Source: Heterotrichella gracilis
Taxonomy: Eukaryota > Sar > Xanthophyceae > Tribonematales > Xanthonemataceae
NCBI GenBank assembly: GCA_032358255.1
Contig: JAULBX010007662.1
Span: 55,893-119,892 of the forward strand
Direction: 5' to 3'
Length of the DNA: 64,000 nt
Part shown: in pieces, positions 683 through 46,900 of the stretch
Layout: each line of letters begins with the position of its first letter
Position numbering within the stretch: the first letter of the stretch is position 1
Translations under genes and position numbers: made by a program
Notes under the pieces: model-generated
The model's input: the letters and a program-made list of their open reading frames with translations, nothing else
Told to the model about the DNA's origin: nothing
Database searches by the model: none

Positions 683-3600
683 ATGGGCAGCCGGCACCCG
701 CACCGGCCCTTGTGGCCAGCGCTAGCGGTGCTTCTATGTCTCTGCACGCATACGTCAGGTATGGTGCCAGATCACTCAGCAGCCCTCAATCAGCTGGGAC
801 CACACTGCTGATTGGACCTTGGGTGCCCTCTGCACCTGCTTGTCAGACGCGTTTGTATCTCTGCCGCAAACATCGCGGGACACAAAGTACGAAAAGCTCT
901 GCTGGCTGCTACAGTGTAGCTAGCCATGCATCCTTGTCCTTCAAGTGGCCTTGGACACCTTGCTGGCCGTTGCCTCCCTCACACCCATGCAGCTGTGAAC
1001 TCGGCATTTTCTAAAGCTCAAGTGCCCCCGCAGGTCAAACAGTTTCAGAAGCTCAGCAGTCTGCCCTGGGGCTGCTGAAAGCAACCCTAGACCCTAGCGG
1101 GAACGGCCTAGACTGGAACCCTTCAACAGGGCACTGTACCTGGACAGGCATCACGTGCAATAGCAAGGGAGTAGTCACGGCAATGTGCGTGCCTGTTCCC
1201 GCGCATGCCTGACAGGCGGCAACCAGCAATGTCTGCGTTCCGCCTACATCATGCGCACTGTGTTGTTTCGAGCTTGGCATGTGGACATGGCAATTACACT
1301 GCCTTATATGCTGCATGCAATGAGGCATCTGTGCATGTTTGGGGTTGGGGCAACAAGGGATGGTCAGCATGTGTGTGTACCTTGGTGTCATCTAGCAACA
1401 GCAGTGCATGAGTTTAAACCACTGGCATCTGCCAACTTTGTATTTGCATGCACCAAGAATGCACTCAGCATGGCAGGCAAGGCCACATCATTTACGACGC
1501 CTTTGACACGCTGCTCTTACCTACTTCCGCATGCTGTTGCAGTGACGTGAGCGACAAGGGCCTCACCGGTGCCCTCCCATGGGACAGCAACCTCTGGAGC
1601 ACCCTGAGCACGGTGCAAACCCTCAATGTGGCGGGGAACCAGCTGGGGGGCTACCTGCCGCCGCAGCTGTCGTCCGCCACAAGCCTGACCACCTTCAGCG
1701 GCCAGGATAACAGCTTTGCGGGGCCGCTGCCCTCCACGTGGGGCAGCATGCCTAACTTGCAGACCGTGAACCTGGCCAACAACCAGATCACGGGGTCGGT
1801 TCCATCCTCATGGAGCGCCATCAGCAGTGTGTAAGTGCAGGCGGTCGGATCGCATGGGCAGTCACCATACATGTCATGATTTATAGCTACATCAAGTATG
1901 CATCTTCCCAGAGCAAGCACTTTCCCAGCACAGCAGGATGGCGTAGCGTCTATCACATGGAAGGTGCGCGTGGCCTTGGGAGGTGGTGCTACTGGCACAG
2001 CCCAATACACTGTCTGCCGGGTGGCAGTGCCCCAGCATGTGAATTCCACAAATGCACCAAGCTTTACTAGCTTTGTAGGGTGGCAATCATGCCACTGACA
2101 TCCCCCACCAGCATATACATGCAATCCATGCATTGTAAACATGCACGATTGTAGGAAACGCTTGGCAAAGCACCAGTGCCAACAGGGCCTCTCAAATGCC
2201 GCAGGAATGTGGGGGGCAACACCAACACCTGCGACAACTACCCCACCTCCCCGGGGTGCGGCACCACCCCACCAGCGCCCGAGAAATCCCCCTCCACCAC
2301 ACCCACCACCAGCCCACCCGGTGGCAACGGCATCAACACAATCACAAACATCCCGCCAAATTTCCTGGCGGAGAAACCCCCCCCCCCAGCACAAGCACCA
2401 GCTCCAGCTGTGGCAAAATCTCCACCCCCCAAGGCGCTCCCCAAGAACCCACCACCACTGGCCAAGCCAATCATAAAAAACCCGCCACCAGTGGTGAAAC
2501 CGCTTCCTAAGAGCCCACCACCGGTGGCGAAACCTCTCCCCAAGAGCCCGCCACCGGTGGTGAAACCCCTCCCCAAGAAACCCCCGCCAGTGGTCAAGCC
2601 CCTGCCCAAGAATCCCCCGCCGGTGGTGAAACCCCTGCCCAAGAATCCCCCACCAGTGAAGCCCCTCCCCAAGCCATCCCCGCCGCTGAAGCCGTTGCCC
2701 CTAAAGGCACCGCCCCCCAAGAAGGTCGTCCCATTGAAGCGCCCACCTCCTGCAATCCCGGCAATCCCTGCGCCAGAGATAGCGCCCATAGCCCCAGCCC
2801 CAGCGCCCATAGCCCCCGCCCCGGCTATAGCCCCCGCCCCGGCCATGGCCCCCGCCCCAGAACCTGACTACATCTGGGTAGAGGTCCCGGCGCCCGCCCC
2901 TTCTGACCTCATCGCCCCTGCGCCAGCCTTTGAGTTTGCGCCCGCCCCCGCGCCAGCCTTTGAAATCGCTCCCGCACCTGCGCCCTATGTCGAGGCCCCC
3001 ACATTCGCCCCCCTCATTGCGCCGGCACCGGCATTTTATGAGGCCCCGGCGCCTGCCCCCTTTTTCGAGGAGGCACCTGCCCCGGCCCCGGTGTATGAAG
3101 GTGCGTGCGGATGGTGGTGGTGGGCGGGGATGCATGCTATACATCTGTCACTCCTTGTGGGGATGGCGTTCATCCTCGCACTCATTGAGTGTCCATGGAA
3201 TACGCGATGGCCAGCGTTGCAATGTGACCTCAACAGTTTCATGCGCTTTGTGCAGCCTTGGTGGTGTGACGGCATCCGGCAATGCGCTCATGGAAAGCAC
3301 CTGGCATTGCATGTGCATGCTTGAATGATGCAATTTGGCTGTGCTGCAGCGCCCGCTTTCGACCCCACCAGCTGCATGACCTAGTTGCTCACCACCATGA
3401 AAGCATGTCACACTGCATGACTCTTGTGCAATGCATGGGATGCTGCAAGCCATCTCGCATGGCGAATGGCTGGTGTTGCCTCACATGCTGTTTGCCTGAC
3501 GTCTCGACACCCCTCCTCCCTTGCAGCCCCTCTCAACCCACCACCACTGTTCCCACCCCCGCGCTTCCCTCCCCCCCGCATTCCCATCAAGCCTCCCAGC

Positions 3601-6600
3601 AAGCCCCCAGCAAAGCCACCAGCGCACCCACCAGCAAACCCCCCCGCACACCCCCCGGCACACCCACCAGCACACCCACCAGCACACCCACCACCGCACC
3701 CACCTCCACCATTCCCGCCACCACCATCCCCACCACCGCCGTCCCCGCCACCACCCGTCCCAGTACCCCTCCCAGCACCCACCATTGCCCCAGCGCCTGA
3801 GATCTCCCCAGCACCGGCACCAACACCTGTCAGACCCTCCGAGGGTCTTGACTTCAACTTCACACTCAATGGTGTGAACCTGGACTCTGAAACCCTATTC
3901 AAGGTCATTTTTTTGGCCACATGCTGAAAAAAACCGATTCAGCACGCATATGGTTGCAACCTGTGCCTGTTCCAATTGAGCCCTCCCGAGGCAATTGCCC
4001 TCGTGCCGTGGCCCAGACCATTGGCCACCAGTATCACAGAATAGAGCATAATAATTGATGGGTGTCCGCCGTAGCAATTTCTTGTCATATGCCACTCCGG
4101 GGATGGGCGTTGTCCTGCTCACGATGACGTGCACACCCTCCCCCTGCAAACCATCACCATGCTCTTAACCTTGTAGGCGTCAGCCCTGCCCAGGCCAACC
4201 AGCAGTCGGCGGCTGTGGCCGCCACCCTGGCCCAGGTCACAGGGGCGCCACCCGAGGAGGTGTTTGTGGATGGGGCAGCGCCGGTGGCTGCCGGCACCAG
4301 GCGCCGCGCCATGCTGGAGCGGCTGGCGATGGAGGGCCAGGTGGCGGGTGGAGAGAACACCGGTAGGGTTTTGGCGCGCGTGATTCGGGTCAGGATGGCA
4401 CTGGAGGGCTTAGGGTTTGCCACTAGGGTTTTGGCGGAATAGTGCATGGGGATTCACCTTGGGCGGCATGCTAGTGCTTTGTGAGGTGCAACCAGGGCCA
4501 GTGGTCTGTGCCCTGCTGGCAGTGGCAGCATAGTTGGCATGCCTGTTTCAGTTGTGCGGCGCCCACACACCATTTGATCATCCGCCTCCTGTTCACCCCC
4601 TTGTGTTACCACCTGCACTGTCCCAGGAGCATACCGGGGCACACCACCCACCAGACACGCGCCACTCGCAGCACATTACAGCACAGGGCACGGACCACAG
4701 CACATCAATGACATCACTCTTTCAACCGGATTTCATGATGTCAACACATCACACCTGCATCCCATGGAAACACTAGATATCGCATTTGCACACTACCGCC
4801 TGACTGACTGCAAATCTGGCTGTGCGGCGGGAATGCATGTAGCTAACCAACAATCCCACCTGCAGATGACATGCCCGTCCTCCTCACATCGGATGACGCC
4901 CTTGCCTTCTCCCGGCCTGGCCCCCGGCGCCTGCTGCAAGCCACAAACCCTACTGCAGCTGTGAGTTCCTTCGTAGGGTCTGCGGATCCACAGGCAGTCC
5001 AAGCAGCCATCCAGCAGTCGGTTAATGACGGCACCTTCGACACCTCACTGGCAGCAAATGGGCTGAACAACGTGCAGATTGACCCTAATTCGCTGAAGTT
5101 TGGACTGGTGCGTGGTGGCAGTGGTGAGGGTAGTGCTGCATGTACATGGGTGGCGTTCCCAGCTGCTGCCGCATGGATGCTTGATGCCACAATAATGACC
5201 AGCCTGGTATGTTAGTTACCAATTTGGTTTGGTTGTGCATTGGTGCTGAAGAGGGTGCATGGAGCGCGCCTGACCAGTGTTCACACACAACTACAGTGGC
5301 CATTGCAATGGGGTCAAAAGTGGCACTGTTTAATGGAACCTGCAAGTATTGCAGAGCCTTTGGGGTATTGTTCCTGACCCTCCTGCCAGTTTCTCACAAG
5401 CGCACCTTCCATGCAGGTTGGCATCACTTTGTCGCCCCCCCCTGTGGCTGCACCGCCACCACCGCCGCCTCCCCCTGCCGGCAGCAGCACCAACATCGGC
5501 ATGATCGTGGGTATTGTGGCTGGTGTGGTGGTTGGCATACTCATCCTCCTTGCGATCATCTGGCTGGTGAGTGGTGGAGGGTGATCATGGGGGATGATCG
5601 GTTGTAAGATGAAGTCTGATAAATGCCCTGCCAATTTTCATTGTGATCATCCGGGTGGTATGTGGTGGAGGGAGAGTGTGGGTGGATAGAACTTGAGGGA
5701 TGGTTGTCTGTTGTGATGTGATTGGTGGGAGGTTTGTCCACGCTGTGGGTGAGTGACGGCTGTCAAACGATTGACAGCTGGTCATTGCGTTGAGTCTGCT
5801 CGATCCTGGCGCGCCTTCTAGCCAAAGGTTGTGTTGTGCACCTGGGATCGACAGGGTACCAGGGTCAATATGAGACTATCCCAGCCATGCAGCCAGATTT
5901 ACAATCAGCCTTGCACATGCGGCACCCAGGCACAATGGGGAAGCATATAGTGCACAGTAGACCATCAACCCAGGCGGCATCCAAGCACTCTCCTCCCGGC
6001 GTGGCCACACCCTTTAGGGTCTAGCCTTAAACCCTAGGGTTTGTCAATCTGAGTGGTGTCTCTCACCCTTTCCCCCAGGTGCGGCGGAGGCGCAACACCG
6101 AGTACTACGACGACGATTCCGAATACACCGCCAAGGGCAAGCGCCTGCGCACCTCAGAAACCGACTCCTCCGAGGAAGAATCCAGCGACGAGGAGTCCAG
6201 CGAGGCGTCGGAATCCACCGAGGAGGATTCCACTGAAGAGGAGGAGGAGGAGGACGACGATGATGATGAGGGGTCGCAGGTTGCGCTGGCCACGGCCAAG
6301 AGCAGCAGCAGGGGGGAGGAGTGGGAGGTCATTCCGGTGGTGGCGGAGAAGCAGAGCATGGTGAGGGGTAGGAGAGGGGCGCAACGGGCATGTCGGATTA
6401 TGTCATGGATGTGTTCTAGTATGGGGATGGGTTTGTTTTGGTAAAAGCCCCAGAATGGGTTTGTTTTTGGTGTAAGCTCTGCACCAAAGGAGTTGGAGGT
6501 TAGCCCAGTTGGGGGCGGAGAAGCAGAGCATGGTGAGGGGGTTGGAGAGGGGGAGCAATGGCATGACTGCTTGCAGGCATTTATGTTGCGATTGATCAAC

Positions 6601-9600
6601 TGGCGGGATCACAAGAACACCCTGCTTGGTGGTGCATGACGACATTTCCGAAAACCAATGAACCCTGGAACCCTAACCTAACCCTCATTGGATCCCCACT
6701 GCAGACTGCCTCCAGCTCCCCTTACTACAAGGGGAGCGCATCAATGAAGTCAAGCCCACCACCAAACCCCCCGGCAGCAGCAGCAGCAGCAGTAGCAGCC
6801 ACCGCCGCCGCAGCCACCGCCACTGCAGCCACGGTTGCAAGAAGCGCATCCAACCGCACCACCACCGCCACCACCACCCCACCAGCCAGGACCGCGTCCG
6901 GGCGCACCACCACCACCCCACCACCACCCACCAGGACCGCATCCGGGCGCACCACCACACCCACCACCACCACCACCACCCCACCAGCAGCAGCACCCGC
7001 ACGAAGCGCATCCGCTCGCACAGCCACCTCCGCAGCGGCCGCAGCGGCCCGCATCAGCGCAGCGCGTGCCAACTCAGGCGGCTTGGGCGTTGCCAGGAGC
7101 GCTTCAGGCAGGACCACCACGGTGGTGACCCAGGGGAGCGCGGCAGCGAAGAGCGCGGGGGCAGGAGCTGCAGGTGGGGATTGGAAAAAACGTTGGAAAT
7201 ACACGACAGCCGGCCTCTGCACTCGCATTGCATTGCAGTTGCAATCCTTTGTTTTGAACCTGCAGTCGCATCTAACTTCACATATGTGGAAGAGACAGGC
7301 TGAGGGCGCCTGCACGCCTGCAGTTGCATTTGACTCGCATTTGTTGGATGAAACATTCTGAGAGCGTTCAACACGCCACTTTGCCTGCAGTTGGTGGCGC
7401 CGCAGTGGGTGGCGCCGCAGTGGGCGCCGCAGCGGTCGCGGCCGCCGTGCGCACCCCCAGCCGCCGCACCTCCAACCCCTTCGATGACAGCCCCGTGTCA
7501 GCCGCAGCCGCCGTGACCCCCACCAATGGTGAGGTGGTGGACAGCCCGCCCCTGACGGCGCGCTCCGCCCGGCTCAAGGGTGCGGATGCGGCGCTCAACT
7601 CGGCGCAGGGCAGCCTGGGGTCCTTCCATGTGGCAGGTGAGGGCTAAACCCGAATCCTAAGACCTAAATCCTAAGACCTGAATCGTTGGACCTAAACCCT
7701 GAGACTTGGAACCTGAGGCAGCCTGGGCTCTTTCCACGTGGCAGGTGGGGAATGCCGTATTTGATCAGTTTCACCTATCATTGGGTATAGAAGTGACATG
7801 CTACATTTTTATATGCATTTGAACTAGCCCAGGCTTGACAACAGCCGATGAAGTTTAGGTATGTGCACCATAAGTCGCAGCGTTGCACACACAAAGCATG
7901 CAGGGTTAGACATGCCCATATAATGTGTAAGCAGGCATATACTTCACAAACATGAGGTCATATGAACATGATGTGTGTACCCAGTTGGTATTTCAAGGTG
8001 AAGTGGCAAGTAAAGAACAGCATGTGCCTGTGAAGTGTAACCCCTGAATTCAACCCTGGCCTTGACATTAAGCCCTTCCCACGCCAGGGGGCGACAGCAC
8101 GGACAGCGACGAGAGTGAGTTCAGTGCGGAGTCAAACAACTCGTTCAAATCGGCTGGTGGCCAGTCGGTGGCCTCCGCAACGTCGTTCAGGTCCGCCCAA
8201 TCAGCAGGCGGCGCTTCCTACAGATCCGCTGGATCATTCAAGTAAGTATTATCCCCAGGACCAACCATGATCCCTAGCAAACCAGCCCCGGTGTAAGCTT
8301 TCCTCCAAATCAATTCAATTATAAATGCATGGCCACAGAAACGTAAGGGCTCAGTAGGCAACACCCACATGTCAGCCTGTACCTTCCAGCATTCCCCATG
8401 CCTAGAAGCACGCTATGGCCATATTGCAATGTTGTGTATATCAAAATCCTGCACACTTGCGCCACCTCTTGGAATGGGCCGATGGCACCCCCCCCCAGGA
8501 ATTGGCAGACACCCAATTGCTCCTGGTCAACCCTTACAACCATGCAACACAAGCACGCCCCCTTCTTCTGCCTGTTCATGCAGCAAATCATTGCACAAAA
8601 TGATGTAAAACCCTTTCTTATATCTGCATCCCTCCCAACAGGAGCGCCACCTCCGGCGCCACCCGCACCAGCAGCCAGGGAGCAGGGCGCAGCCAGCCCA
8701 CCCAGGCGCAGCTGGCCATCGCCCGCGCAGCACTGACGCGGTCGCCATCGGACTCTGGCAAGTCGGCCATGAACAGCGCAAGGTATGGCCATAATTTGTG
8801 GGTACTAAAAAAGGAAATAGAAATAGGGCTTTTAAAGCAATTCTGGAAGTCAGCTATGAACAGCGCAAGGTATGGGAAGGGGTTGAAGCCCTTACGCAGG
8901 GATGGTGCCATGGGTCATGCAGTGCCAGTGTGGAGATACAGCGCCAATGAAGAAAACAGCGGCTGGTCTGAATGCCATACAGTATGATGCTGAATGTGCA
9001 TGTATCTTAGCAGCTAACAGTGCTGATGTTAGTTCTTGGCATCATCAGTATCCAGGAAACAAACGCGCTCAAATTGGGAATCTACCTTGTCCAGGATGAT
9101 CGCAATGAGTATCATTTTGTAAACGATGATTATGATCATAAATATCAATGATGAATCCTATGATGTCATATCCAATTGAACACAGCCCTGCTGCAGCCTG
9201 CGCCACCTTGACTCGAATCATCATTAATGATCATCAAAACCAGTAACGATTTCATGTGATCTCACATTTAATTGAACACGGCCCTGCTGCAGGTCCGACC
9301 GCCACCTTGACTCTGGCATGAGCAATGTGAGCAGCCATGCCATTGGGCACGATGTCGACCTTACATCGGATGAGGACAATGCGCCACCGGGGAAGTCGCC
9401 CATATGTGCGTACAAACCCAACATCAAACTACTTCAAGTTTGAATTTACTTTGTAAGATACCTGCTGCATTTACAATGCAACCTATGGGGAGTATGATTT
9501 ATGGCAGTTTTTTGCGTTTTCCATTGTCCTGCCGAAATGTGGTGTCTTGTTGCGCGACATGGGCACTTCACCCCTCTGGCTGTATGTGTAAGATTAAGCA

Positions 9601-9899
9601 AAGCAAAGCCTCGCCAACCCTTTCACCCTCATTCCCATCCCTTTTCCGTCACCCACATCCCCCCCCTTGCCCCCGCAGATGGCGCCAACCCGCTGTACAC
9701 CACAGGCAGCGACATCATGTCCACTGCAGACAGCGACGCAGGCAGGCAGCGCAACCCGCTCTTTGACACGAGCGGGAGCACTGGGATCGCGGTCAACACC
9801 GCAGGCAACCCGCTCTACGGCACCCAGCAGAGCGACATCCTCAGCACGGGGGGGTCGGAACAGGGGAAGAACCCTCTGTACGAAAGGGCGGGCCGCTGA
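683..9899 (+). CDS. LRR and proline-rich single-pass membrane receptor-like protein with NPLY tail
   Basis: Exons: 683-758, 1034-1184, 1543-1830, 2205-3100, 3527-3871, 4177-4362, 4866-5107, 5417-5566, 6079-6360, 6705-7173, 7391-7636, 8088-8241, 8642-8782, 9293-9405, 9679-9899. All phases agree and the product is 1319 aa. Residues 1-25 are a signal peptide (WPALAVLLCLC core). Residues 26-75 match the plant LRRNT_2 cap (W..S..HCTWTGITC). About four LRRs follow to residue ~172 (NLQTVNLANNQITG), closed by a NTNTC cap. Residues ~180-585 are SPPPV.KPLPK, PAPAP and HPPA repeats typical of hydroxyproline-rich wall proteins. Residues ~570-728 are a membrane-proximal domain containing PRRLLQ. The membrane helix is at ~753-778 (IVAGVVVGILILLAIIWL), then VRRRR, an acidic Ser/Glu/Asp run, a long Ala/Thr/Ser-rich disordered tail, and four NPL(Y/F) motifs in the last 75 residues. 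There is no kinase. Inference: a surface sensor or wall anchor with adaptor-docking motifs. The function is unknown. Confidence 0.85.
6344..6561 (+). repeat. Intronic copy of exon 9 tail plus splice donor
   Basis: The last bases of exon 9 and its donor (6344-6390, junction 6360/6361, core AAGCAGAGCATGGTGAGG) recur 172 bp downstream at 6515-6561 (junction-equivalent 6532/6533). The following GGAGAGGGG-type sequence is also repeated. The copy lies inside the intron and keeps an intact GTGAGG donor. Confidence 0.85.
7609..7748 (+). repeat. Intronic copy of exon 11 tail plus splice donor
   Basis: The end of exon 11 (7609-7640, GGCAGCCTGGGGTCCTTCC then GTGGCAG/gt) is repeated with a few substitutions at 7717-7748, offset 108 bp. 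The copy keeps GTGGCAG/gtgggg. Degenerate CCTAA-type motifs fill the space between the copies. Confidence 0.85.
8760..8878 (+). repeat. Intronic copy of exon 13 tail plus splice donor
   Basis: Exon 13 ends with ATGAACAGCGCAAG/gtatgg at 8782/8783. The same 20 bases recur at 8857-8876 (junction-equivalent 8870/8871), 88 bp downstream within the intron. Confidence 0.85.
9168..9315 (+). repeat. Upstream copy of exon 14 acceptor and exon head
   Basis: The acceptor region of exon 14 (9263-9313: AATTGAACACGGCCCTGCTGCAG, then CGCCACCTTGACTC) has a diverged copy at about 9168-9215 with its own CTGCTGCAG, offset 96 bp. The copy sits in the intron just upstream of the real acceptor and could act as a competing 3' splice site. 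Confidence 0.75.
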
Positions 9900-10210
9900 G
9901 GCAGCCGCTGGGGGAAGGGTTTTGTGTGAGCAGGGGCAGTGGGGCAGGGATTTGTGTTGGGTTGGGGGCATGCAGTCACAGGGGCAGGTGGCTCAGGTTG
10001 AGGGAGAGTTGGCACCCAGCAGAGACACATTGTGAACTGAGGGAGTCCGAACAGGGGATGAAACCCCTGTATGAAAGGGCAGGCAGGAGACAGCTGTTGG
10101 GGAGACCTGTTCTTCATGAGCAGGGCAGTCGAGGGTTGGGGCGCAGAAATGCGCTGGGTGCCGGGCATGCAGGCGCGGGGTCAGCTGGCTGGGGTGGGGT
10201 CAGTTGGCAC
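9818..10210 (+). repeat. 193-bp tandem duplication of the terminal exon and 3' UTR
   Basis: Two diverged direct copies start at 9818 and 10011, both opening GGCACCCAGCAGAG. The first copy covers the end of the last exon, the stop codon at 9897-9899 and following UTR. The second is wholly downstream of the stop, yet in one frame it still spells a variant of the C terminus (K-PLYERAGR). A third copy begins with GGCACAGCAG near 10206 and quickly decays. Confidence 0.8.
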
Positions 10211-11726
10211 AGCAGCCATTGCTGTTGGGTGATGACATTTACGGCTTGGCCCATGTCAACTTGTAGGTTTAGCGGAGGGTGGTAGATTGGTGGTGTTTGG
10301 CAGGGGAGTGCAACAACTACATAGAAGTTCAGGATCCTTGCGCTCCTGAGGGTGTGGCTCGTTTCTCCTTAAGCGTGATCCAGCTGTTTGTATTGAATCT
10401 CAAGCCTAGCCCAGTTTTGCGCCTACAGCCCAGTTTCGCGCTTACTATTTGCTCCACTATGCTTGGGCCCCAGCGGTTGGGTGGGCTGGGCTCCTGCAAT
10501 GGAGACCCGGGCATCTGACAAGGTGATCCAGCCCAGGAGCCCAGCCGCCGGATCATGATCCACACCTTCAGTGTCTGTTTCTCTTTTTCCGGATATTTTT
10601 TTCGAAGATGTTTGCTTAAGACCATGGCGTCCCATCAATGACGTGGACTTGTGCAAATGACCCAGACACCCAGCTTGAGCCATGTATTTATCACATCAAC
10701 TTGATGTTGCAGCGGCAGTCTGGGAATTGCAGCTGATTTAGCTGAAAGGTCAGTAATTAGGTAGAACATAATCATTGATTTGACAAAGGGCCGGTACACA
10801 TGTGGGTGAGTCAAACCGTAATGTATGTTGTCAGATGCTGCCAATGGCGCATCCGACTCGGCAATGATGGGCAATATTGGCTACATAGCTCGACTCCAAT
10901 GAATTTCAGTCTGGCAGCAATTTGAATTTCCCGCGAAAACTAATTTCATATCCACTGCAGTGGTGGGGCACCTGTGAGAATTTCCCGGCTTTTCAACCGC
11001 CACCCCGCCATGATGGGCCCACCGGTGTTCCGAACGGCAGCAACCGTGGCAAACTGTTCACAAATTGAATGTAATAGGCCTATGAGGGTTACAGCTTCAA
11101 CAAATATATTGTGACAATTGAGGAGCAACCCGGACTGGTTTTAACCAGTCAGTTACTGATTCAGTTCAGAACAAGCTCTGAGTCACGGCGCCTGCAGTTG
11201 TACCCCATATACCCAAGCTACAACCCCCGCATTGCAAAGAAATTGGGTCAGCTTTTGGACCACACGCACACTTCTTGCCGTAGAACACCCAGCAGCCCAC
11301 ATACGCACAGCACCATCAGGCCCCTCCTCTGCAACTGTTGCAGCCTTGGGTACAAATCAATTGGCAGCTGGTCATGGCATTGCCACGAAATAAAGAACTT
11401 CACACATTTTTTTCTGGGCGCAACAGGTACTGGTGGTCAACACATTGATATTGAGAGGGAAAAAAACTAGAAAACATAAAGAAAATGTTGAAATCTTGAG
11501 AAATTGGGTGGGTGCACGCCATTCACTTTCGGTACAGTGCACCAGGGTCGCATGCGACTTGCCCACACCTTTTGTATATCTATGCAAGAAGTAGCTCTGG
11601 AAAAAGGAATCTCCAATAAAAGTGCCAAAAATAGAACTGCTTTACGCCGCCAGTGCAAGGCTGCCCCGAGACCTGGCTGTATTGCTGAATAATCAACTCA
11701 GTGCTTGCCGATACAACCATACCCCT
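10211..11726. other. Intergenic, no gene seen
   Basis: Convergent gap between the receptor-like gene and the methyltransferase. Open frames are short and not protein-like. It should hold both 3' ends. Confidence 0.5.
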
Positions 11727-43986: not shown

Positions 43987-46900
43987 CTAGTAGCAGTCTT
44001 CACTGAACGAGCCCTGGTTGGGGATCCTTGTCCTGATTGGGGATGGAAGGAACTTGGGCGTGAACGAGTATGGCACCTCTGCTGCATGTGGCTGGGCGGA
44101 TGCGTTCATTGCATATCCAGAACCGCCGCCCGTGGGGGACACCTTGGTGGAAGCTGCTGGGTTGGAGCCCTGCTTGGGCGCATTGTTGAACTGCATGAAG
44201 CCTACGCTTGCCAGGTGTTCCTCCCATGAGATCCGGTGTGTGTGCTGCAAGGTGGAGGAGACGAGGACCTCGGCCGTGGAGTGTGCCATGGAGTTGATGC
44301 GAGGGCCCTGGCCGGGGGGGATGGAGCGGCCCGCGTCGCGGGGAGGTGCTGGTGGCAGGGACTTGTCGTGTGGGTTCACGGTGTAGTGGCGTTGCAGGGA
44401 GTTGATGGGGGGTCCACGATGAGGTGGGTAGAAGCGCCCAGCATCATTCTTGGGGTTGATCTGTGGCAGTCACACTTTCTGTCAGATGGGGATTGCAAAT
44501 GAGATGGATCCTCATGTGCATGTTTATAATATTCATATTTTGCATGAATAATAATTATAAATTTCCTTGCAACCGCAGTATCAGCATCACCAACTTCAGT
44601 GCAAGTCTGAACATGCATAAGACTTTATTAATTACATCCATTGCTGGCAGGGGTTGCCCTTCATGCACGCATCCAAACTCACCATCCCGGCGTATGGTAG
44701 TGTGCAGTTCTCCACAGTGACCGGGGTGCGCTGCTTGTGGGATGAGCGCTGCGCCTTCTTCTGGCGACCCTGCTGGGAACTCTTCTTTGCCTGATCCTGC
44801 TCCTGCTCGCGCCCAATGCGCCGGTAGCGCACACAGAACACCACTGCGCCCACAAACAAACAAGTGGTTAGGTCTGTTATAACTGTAATATACAGACAAA
44901 AATAAAGGCTTTCCAAGCCCTGTGCGTCTGTGAGGGACACACGGCTCTGTAATTGTACTTTCATGATGCTACGGTGACATGTCTGAGACAGCGTAGCAGA
45001 CTGCACACATGGATATGTACTCTAGAGAGCCAGGCACTTGGTGTCTCATCTGCAAATGTGGTCCATTCAGGACCACACAAGGTCATTAGCCAACGATAGC
45101 TGGGAATGCCTCTAGAAGAAATAAAGAAGGGAATGCCCACAGGAGACCAGCCCTTAAATACACTGTATCTGTAACTGCAACAGCCAGGCACTGCATCAGG
45201 CACCAGCAGCTCTCACCTGAGTACGACAGCACCAGCATGGCACTTGTGGCAATGATGGCAAACACCCACCAGGGCAGACCTGCCCCGCTCTTGCTGGGAT
45301 CCACCACTGGGAGGATGGGCTCGATTTTGCTTGACTGGACGACAGCGCCATTCGCTCTTATGTTTAAGCCTGAAACTGAAGTTCACACACAAAACATAAA
45401 GTCAGTACTTCTGACAATAAACCCTAAACAACAAGCACGTGAGGGGCATCAGGTGCCATTACTAAAAGGGCTAAGGGGTTTGCATGACAAGAAATCGCCA
45501 GCCTGGTGGCCACCCTAAACCCTAAACTCTAAACCCTAAACCATGGCACACTGCACCCTGATCCCTGCACAATGGCGTTCACAATGTGCATCAGGTTCAC
45601 TGCAGTGCAAGGGAGCCGGACTGCACAAATAAATCAACTAATATGCAGCCTGTCCTTGAACAGGCGCGTTGGTTGTAGGAAGGGGAGTTAGCAAAATGAA
45701 TGGCACTGGTCCCATGTCCATTATCTCCACTATCCTATGATATGGGTGAACATACCTCGCATGTCATAATTTGCTGCCAGCTGGCCTGTGGCCACAAATC
45801 CGAGGATGGTGGCTTGCTCCACTGCCACCCGCAGGCTGCTGGTGGTGATGGTGATCCGCAGCACCACGCCGTCGGGCCCTGGCGGGGTGGAGAGGATGCG
45901 GCGGGAGCCGTACTGCGCAGAGTCGCCGATTTCCCACCCAGAGATGGCAGCGGCGTCGGGGTATGCGTCAACGGGGGCAGGGGCAGATCCAGGGGCCCCG
46001 TTGGGGTCGGTGGGTGAGCTGTTGACCTGGACACATGTGAGGGACGGTTTTGGTCTGTGGCACTGCATGGCATGTTGGCGCGGCTTTGTCTGGCATGGTG
46101 TCACGTCCCCACTATGTGCTGGTGCTGGTGGTGCAGTACAGATTATGTTCAGATGTGAGCAGACAACTTGCGCGGCTTTGAAAACACCCTGGTAGCATCA
46201 TCATGAGAACCATCACGACAGGGTCCAATAGAAGACACCCAATTCAACCCCGAACCCTAACCAAATGCCCTATTCTTAAACCTAAAACCTTAACCGTACA
46301 CAGTCCGGACAAATGCAACAGCTCCAGCTAAATAACTTCAGCGGAGCTGCAACAGAACTGCAAAAGGACAACAACAATAAGAAAACGCACACAGGTAGCA
46401 GCCCAGGTACAACACACGTGTGCAGGGAGCATGCATGAGCAGGTAGCCTCGCATGGTAGCATCTGGTCCAGCACGGCCAGCCTTGGGTGCAGGGTTTAGG
46501 GTTGGTGTAGGGTTCAGGATATAGGGTTCAAGGTTTAGGTACCGAGGTGGCCCTTGAACTGGAACTAGTCCAGCATGGCCAGTCTTGGGTGTAGGGTGTA
46601 GGGTTGGTGTAGGGTTCAAGGGTTAGGGTTTAAGGTTTAGGGTTTGGGGTACGAGGTGGCCCACCTGGAACTGGTCCAGCACTGCCACGTCCATGTCTGT
46701 CAGTGGCACTGGGCCCAGCAGCTCTGCGATGGCAAACTTCATAACGCCGCACTTGGCATAATTGAAAGGGATGAGACGCGAGCCAGTCATCAGTAGCTGA
46801 ACAACCAGGTGCGTGTCCTGCAGGGGTACAAGGAACAGATAGGTAAGCACGCCTTTTGTTTGTTGGTAAGTACGTATGTACTACCATTTATACGCAGTCA

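Follow-up and report, generated by a model that had tools for sequence, protein, structure and literature searches.

Intron gain via the duplication of an exonic AGGT segment was described by Rogers (1989; cited after PMC4974935), and in the potato RdRp gene a short tandem duplication across an intron-exon boundary, together with its splice signals, was reported by Ma et al. (2016; PMC4974935). In vertebrates, repair-mediated duplications consist of short local copies, which can extend to exons and to the splice sites of introns (Pace et al. 2009; PMC2671141). Moreover, CST-guided Pol alpha-primase fill-in at break ends leads to small tandem duplications, as found in mammalian cells with induced breaks (PMC8355091), and introners provide repeat-derived intron material in fast-evolving lineages such as green algae (PMC9860276). 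Both tandem duplications across exon edges and repair-made splice-site copies are thus already described (PMC4974935, PMC2671141). No report of such copies in a green alga was found in a literature search leaning on open-access journals. The present study concerns a gene whose introns carry copies of neighbouring exon edges, and revealed that such copies occur across the sampled genome, with this gene being a hot spot.

Sample, scans and gene models

The window, i.e., the whole stretch of 64,000 nucleotides in which the gene lies, is part of contig C78 in a eukaryotic assembly (68.5 Mb, 903 contigs), and was searched together with 19 sampled stretches (186.6 kb), giving 250,562 bases in all. 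Its gene structure and composition suggest a green alga. The scan covered ungapped local repeats with a score >=14 and a trinucleotide entropy >3.9 at offsets of 40-500, with offsets of 3040-3500 as the control. The resulting 93 events were reduced to a merged set of 70 by gapped extension, removal of alignments shorter than 24 columns, and joining of overlaps. Expectations for the position of events were derived from 500 random placements. Exon and intron labels came from a gene finder that was self-trained on the sample without RNA, and that predicted 359 donors (consensus CAG/GTRNG) and 362 acceptors (TGCAG/G). It missed exon 10 of the window gene, which was placed by hand, whereupon exons 8-15 formed a single open frame. 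A search against Rfam gave no match at the gathering threshold.

With regard to the assembly as a whole, 18 of 19 ABC-transporter loci (L031-L049; contigs C1, C83, C111, C145, C253, C331, C442, and others) had a GC content of 34-39% and no predicted introns, compared with 53% GC in the window. Judged by these low-GC, intronless loci, bacterial contigs appear to be part of the assembly, including some of >500 kb. The 19 loci were rejected as an out-of-sample replicate because 18 lie on low-GC contigs that lack introns; the sole algal-looking one, L042 (3.4 kb), yielded 0 events.

Copies of exon edges in the window gene

The product of the window gene contains leucine-rich repeats (Pfam LRR_1, 29.8 bits, above the cut-off) as well as long stretches rich in proline, one transmembrane segment, and a tail of low complexity. 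Four intronic copies had been claimed in the first-pass annotation, namely those of the exon 9, 11, and 13 donors and of the exon 14 acceptor, and all four were found at the places given (Table 1). Two further copies had been overlooked, one of the exon 8 donor and one of the terminal exon together with its 3' end. Events recognisable in this gene extend over 5547-10215, wider than the 6344-9315 originally marked. The GT or AG, claimed to be kept in most of the copies, is kept in all five copied splice sites. The exon 9 pair includes a 31-nt core (6338-6368 / 6510-6540) with 97% identity, and the last-exon pair was detected from 9819 / 10011 in another alignment. Since the spacer of the exon 9 pair belongs to a dispersed repeat, the original offset of this copy may have been near 94 bp. 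In addition, the identities of the copies vary from 78 to 94%, suggesting repeated events rather than one burst, on neutral rates that are uncalibrated. No paralogues for dating the copies were found, all five protein matches being the window gene's own exons.

Table 1. Positions of the duplicated exon edges and associated spacers of the window gene (window coordinates)
Feature	Source or position	Copy	Strand	Details
Exon 8 (transmembrane segment), its tail being the copy source	5417..5566		+	Gene finder, open frame, alignment
Exon 8 tail and donor	5547-5595	5638-5687 (intronic)	+	GT kept, 80% identity, offset 91
Exon 9 tail and donor	6317-6392	6488-6565 (intronic)	+	Offset 171-172
Spacer in intron 9, piece of dispersed repeat	6414..6491		+	At least 14 places in the genome
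Exon 11 tail and donor	7609-7642	7717-7750 (intronic)	+	88% identity, offset 108
Spacer with degenerate telomere-like tract (CCTAAGACCTAAAT...)	7643..7716		+	
Exon 13 tail and donor	8754-8788	8842-8875 (intronic)	+	94% identity, offset 87-88
Exon 14 acceptor and exon start (real site as source)	9227-9313	9132-9214 (intronic)	+	AG kept, 81% identity, offset 95-96
Last exon end, stop codon, and 3' flank	9850-10022	10041-10215 (downstream)	+	78% identity, offset 191

Besides its occurrence in intron 9, the dispersed repeat (ATGGGTTTGTTTTGGTATAAG...) was located at L016 7757-7806 and L025 6408-6455, and it often comprises two overlapping units and is also found near contig ends. Degenerate telomere-like tracts (TTTAGGG / CCCTAAA) were likewise present in predicted introns, at 7643-7716 and 46463-46687 of the window and at 7870-7930 and 9423-9490 of L021, several of them directly adjoining duplicated exon edges.

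Abundance and clustering of local repeats

Throughout the 250.6 kb sample, 93 direct local repeat events were detected, compared with none in the distant-offset control; chance is therefore excluded, as the first-pass annotation had suggested. In the window, 19 ungapped local repeats with a score >=18 at offsets of 20-600 were found versus 0 on an equal number of distant diagonals, several of the 19 being proline-rich protein repeats or minisatellites. Inverted local repeats, counted with a slightly different merging rule, numbered 17, including nine in L026, and outside L026 the direct events outnumbered the inverted ones by 92 to 8. Among the merged events, 58 of 70 offsets fell between 80 and 250 bp. 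L026 is peculiar in that positions 3600-10000 contain nine inverted repeats (28-64 nt, arms 50-190 bp apart) in 6 kb, compared with eight in the remaining 240 kb.

The proposed concentration of copies in a single gene was borne out, with six of the 13 window events falling in the window gene, which has 13 of the 182 predicted splice sites of the window (binomial p 1.5e-4, an optimistic value given that the gene had been chosen beforehand for its copies). The number of events per 10 kb ranged from 0 to 21 (mean 4.1, variance 27.1), and the clustering persisted after splice-site number was allowed for (chi-square 61.1, 19 df, with small expectations), which would not be predicted from a uniform process. 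Hot spots were L021 (14 merged events) and the window gene (six). Approximately one predicted splice site in 17 has a fossil copy (42 events, 721 sites). Moreover, one exon tail with its donor is present in three copies at L021 7805-8110, some of which were predicted as separate used exons, representing possible exon multiplication.

Position relative to exons and splice sites

Exon-intron pairs accounted for 52 of the 93 events, compared with 27.7 expected (range 16-42), while intron-intron pairs accounted for 22 (41.0 expected, range 28-53), exon-exon pairs for 13 (8.6 expected), and intergenic pairs for one (11.6 expected). Placement of events within their own stretch led to near-identical expectations (29.5 for exon-intron pairs). 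According to the first-pass annotation, its reading would be refuted by the lack of an excess near splice sites. In the 250.6 kb sample such an excess was present, as a predicted splice site was spanned by 45 of the 93 blocks versus 20.4 expected (range 9-33, 500 placements).

The merged set comprised 42 exon-intron and 11 intron-intron events. In 24 of the former the copy lies downstream, with the block reaching the donor in 17, and in the other 18 it lies upstream, with the block reaching the acceptor in 14. The exon edge facing the copy was thus reached in 31 of the 42, and the block ended within 25 nt of this edge in 41. Tandem duplication requires that the block end at the exon edge facing the copy, so the geometry of these 41 events fits a tandem origin. 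In simulations, the facing edge was reached in 74-86% and approached to within 25 nt in 87-95% of tandem events, compared with 52% and 68%, respectively, for dispersed local copies.

Apparently neutral decay and age of the copies

In the 63 events with exon-intron columns, the mismatches between exon and intronic copy at codon positions 1, 2, and 3 were 72/750, 84/756, and 130/757 (9.6, 11.1, and 17.2%), and stops were about as frequent as expected (11 vs 9.7), on which grounds the intronic copies look neutral; synonymous differences amounted to 115 of 286 (99 expected). The mismatch pattern corresponds to a common neutral part of approximately 10% plus exon change at third positions, as predicted for a neutral copy. 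Coding copies would show positions 1 and 2 near zero. As the exon represents the constrained reference copy, fossils of this kind lend themselves to the dating and counting of duplications.

An active process, as envisaged in the first-pass annotation, is not supported by the age distribution: an identity >=95% was found in only three of the 70 merged events (two between predicted exons and one short intergenic repeat), compared with 14-23% of events in constant-rate simulations. Similarly, 13 of the 70 events had spacers <=15 bp, compared with 36-54% in the same kind of simulations. The process may have slowed, recombination may have removed young repeats again, or some of them may have been collapsed in the assembly.

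Origin of the copies

The copies are probably decayed relics of local head-to-tail duplications that spanned an exon edge by chance, a reading based on the direct orientation, the offsets, the geometry, the neutral substitutions, and simulations with chosen parameters, and one that the tandem duplication across splice sites originally put forward for this gene also fits. A duplication unit, mostly of 80-250 bp, would start in an exon and end in the next intron, or the reverse, whereupon the gene would carry the exon edge twice. Splicing would retain the outer, original site (the first donor or the last acceptor) and leave the protein unaltered, so that the second exon piece would become intronic and decay at the neutral rate, while the genuine exon piece would be held by selection. 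As the intron-intron part of the unit would diverge on both sides and by indels, it is mostly the exon-edge part that would stay recognisable. Duplications within exons would mostly be purged and those within introns would fade sooner, so that visible copies would be over-represented at exon edges. Selection and decay can therefore account for the splice-site excess with no need for targeting, and copying directed to splice sites was discarded as unnecessary, given that selection and decay yielded the excess in simulation. Most likely, the copies reflect no new mechanism but a common side effect of DNA repair, possibly through staggered breaks or paired nicks that were filled in and then rejoined at their ends.

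The spacers between the copies place constraints on this reading. In the exon-intron events, the median spacers were 111 and 81.5 bp for the two orders, with 6 of 42 being <=15 bp, whereas a simulation with a constant birth rate placed 45-50% of them at <=15 bp; constant-rate tandem duplication with default settings was thus rejected as a poor fit. When duplications were simulated with frequent indels and ages of 0.1-0.3 substitutions per site, and passed through the same pipeline, the exon-intron spacer medians were 81-119 bp with 1-9% at <=15 bp, the ratio of exon-intron to intron-intron events was 1.4-17 (42:11 observed), and the short intron part of the blocks was also similar to that observed. 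Tandem duplication with neutral decay would accordingly yield a similar anatomy only with a majority of old events and a high indel rate, both of which are settings assumed for the simulation. The rare simulated intron-only events of these ages had spacers of 102-157 bp versus an observed median of 20, and therefore a mixture of ages is needed. Spacerless pairs do occur, at L019 7750-7844/7845-7947 and at 46475-46575/46577-46681 of the window. Among the 35 events in which the comparison could be made, the spacer resembled the flank expected to hold the remainder of the unit in 9, and the wrong flank in 6, compared with 35-48% resemblance in the fitting range of the simulations, for which a cruder shuffle was used. 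An exclusion of tandem units on account of the unrelated spacers was dropped in view of the duplication-and-decay simulations.

The main rival, which is unlikely but deserves weight, is a duplication with filler, in which a 30-130 bp unit would be doubled and a single repair event would also insert unrelated DNA between them. Its simulation fits the exon-intron events well (median spacer of 113, with 45 bases of exon and 17 of intron, and spacer homology in 12%), most observed spacers resemble neither flank, and two spacers in the window contain the dispersed repeat or a telomere-like tract. However, it predicts comparable spacers in intron-only copies as well (simulated median 105), where the observed median was 20 (n = 11), and the 13 of 70 events with <=15 bp between copies also speak against it. 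Dispersed local copying, by which nearby DNA would be pasted into an intron break through synthesis-dependent strand annealing, is a process known in vertebrates (Pace et al. 2009; PMC2671141) and agrees with spacers mostly lacking homology to the flanks, but the 68% of blocks that it predicts within 25 nt of the facing edge, against the 41 of 42 observed, and the strong preference for direct orientation outside L026 make it very improbable.

Retention of the copies as alternative splice sites or exons would be in line with the GT or AG kept in 37 of 40 copies of sites predicted to be used once, and with the predicted donor scores, as the donor scores of the exon 9 and exon 13 copies are identical to those of the real sites and that of the exon 11 copy nearly so; moreover, hypothetical use of the exon 13 copy would extend the protein by 29 in-frame residues with no stop. 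The dinucleotide retention is only a mild excess over the approximately 78% expected at a per-base identity of approximately 88%, and is not pressed here. The near 10% difference at codon positions 1 and 2 and the expected number of stops reveal no coding constraint, and use of the exon 8, 9, 11, or 14 copies would introduce in-frame stops, such that retention appears highly improbable. Intact copied splice sites are, as a warning, no evidence of alternative splicing or intron birth. False local duplication in the assembly is extremely improbable, as it would not produce copies differing by 4-27% with indels in 69 of the 70 merged events, and no event was found at the 19 ABC-transporter loci, intronless or otherwise, of this assembly.

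Returning to tandem relics, a past burst of short tandem duplication in the algal lineage, centred on certain transcribed genes, can be proposed tentatively; it would have left a copy at about one in 17 sites, a density far above that known elsewhere, and young copies would be missing because the process has stopped or because fresh repeats are unstable.

Comparison with known systems

In the AGGT type of intron gain (Rogers 1989, cited after PMC4974935), a second donor or acceptor likewise arises from tandem duplication, but the required likeness between donor and acceptor flanks at intron-length offset was not enriched among the 351 predicted introns of the sample relative to shuffled pairs (score >=10, 5 vs 3.1; score >=16, 1 vs 0.0). 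A clear excess of introns born by such duplication, a route to new introns mentioned in the first-pass annotation, is thus lacking in this sample. A single predicted intron with well-matching flanks (score 16), at L016 8960-9602, may either contain a wrongly predicted exon or have truly arisen by duplication. As for introners, intron 9 is not a member of such a family, as only an inner piece of it (query 67-162 of 371) is matched elsewhere. The survey of Vaughn and Bennetzen (2014) is reportedly one of rice.

The copied exons of Pace et al. (2009; PMC2671141) are likewise without selective constraint, and partial exon/intron donors made up 4 of 824 cases; their pipeline searches inside transposable elements and removes copies within 50 bp as tandem. 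Unlike in that system, the geometry here favours tandem units and the orientation is nearly always direct. The present copies show the frequency with which small duplications extend across exon edges, leaving splice sites in introns that look usable, and their density and gene-level hot spots may be of interest for specialist comparison. In the potato RdRp gene, the duplicated edge gave rise to a new, used intron (PMC4974935), whereas the copies described here lie in an existing intron and are, as predicted from sequence, mostly unused. Furthermore, Pol alpha-primase fill-in (PMC8355091) would be a plausible source of small direct duplications, for which no homology is required.
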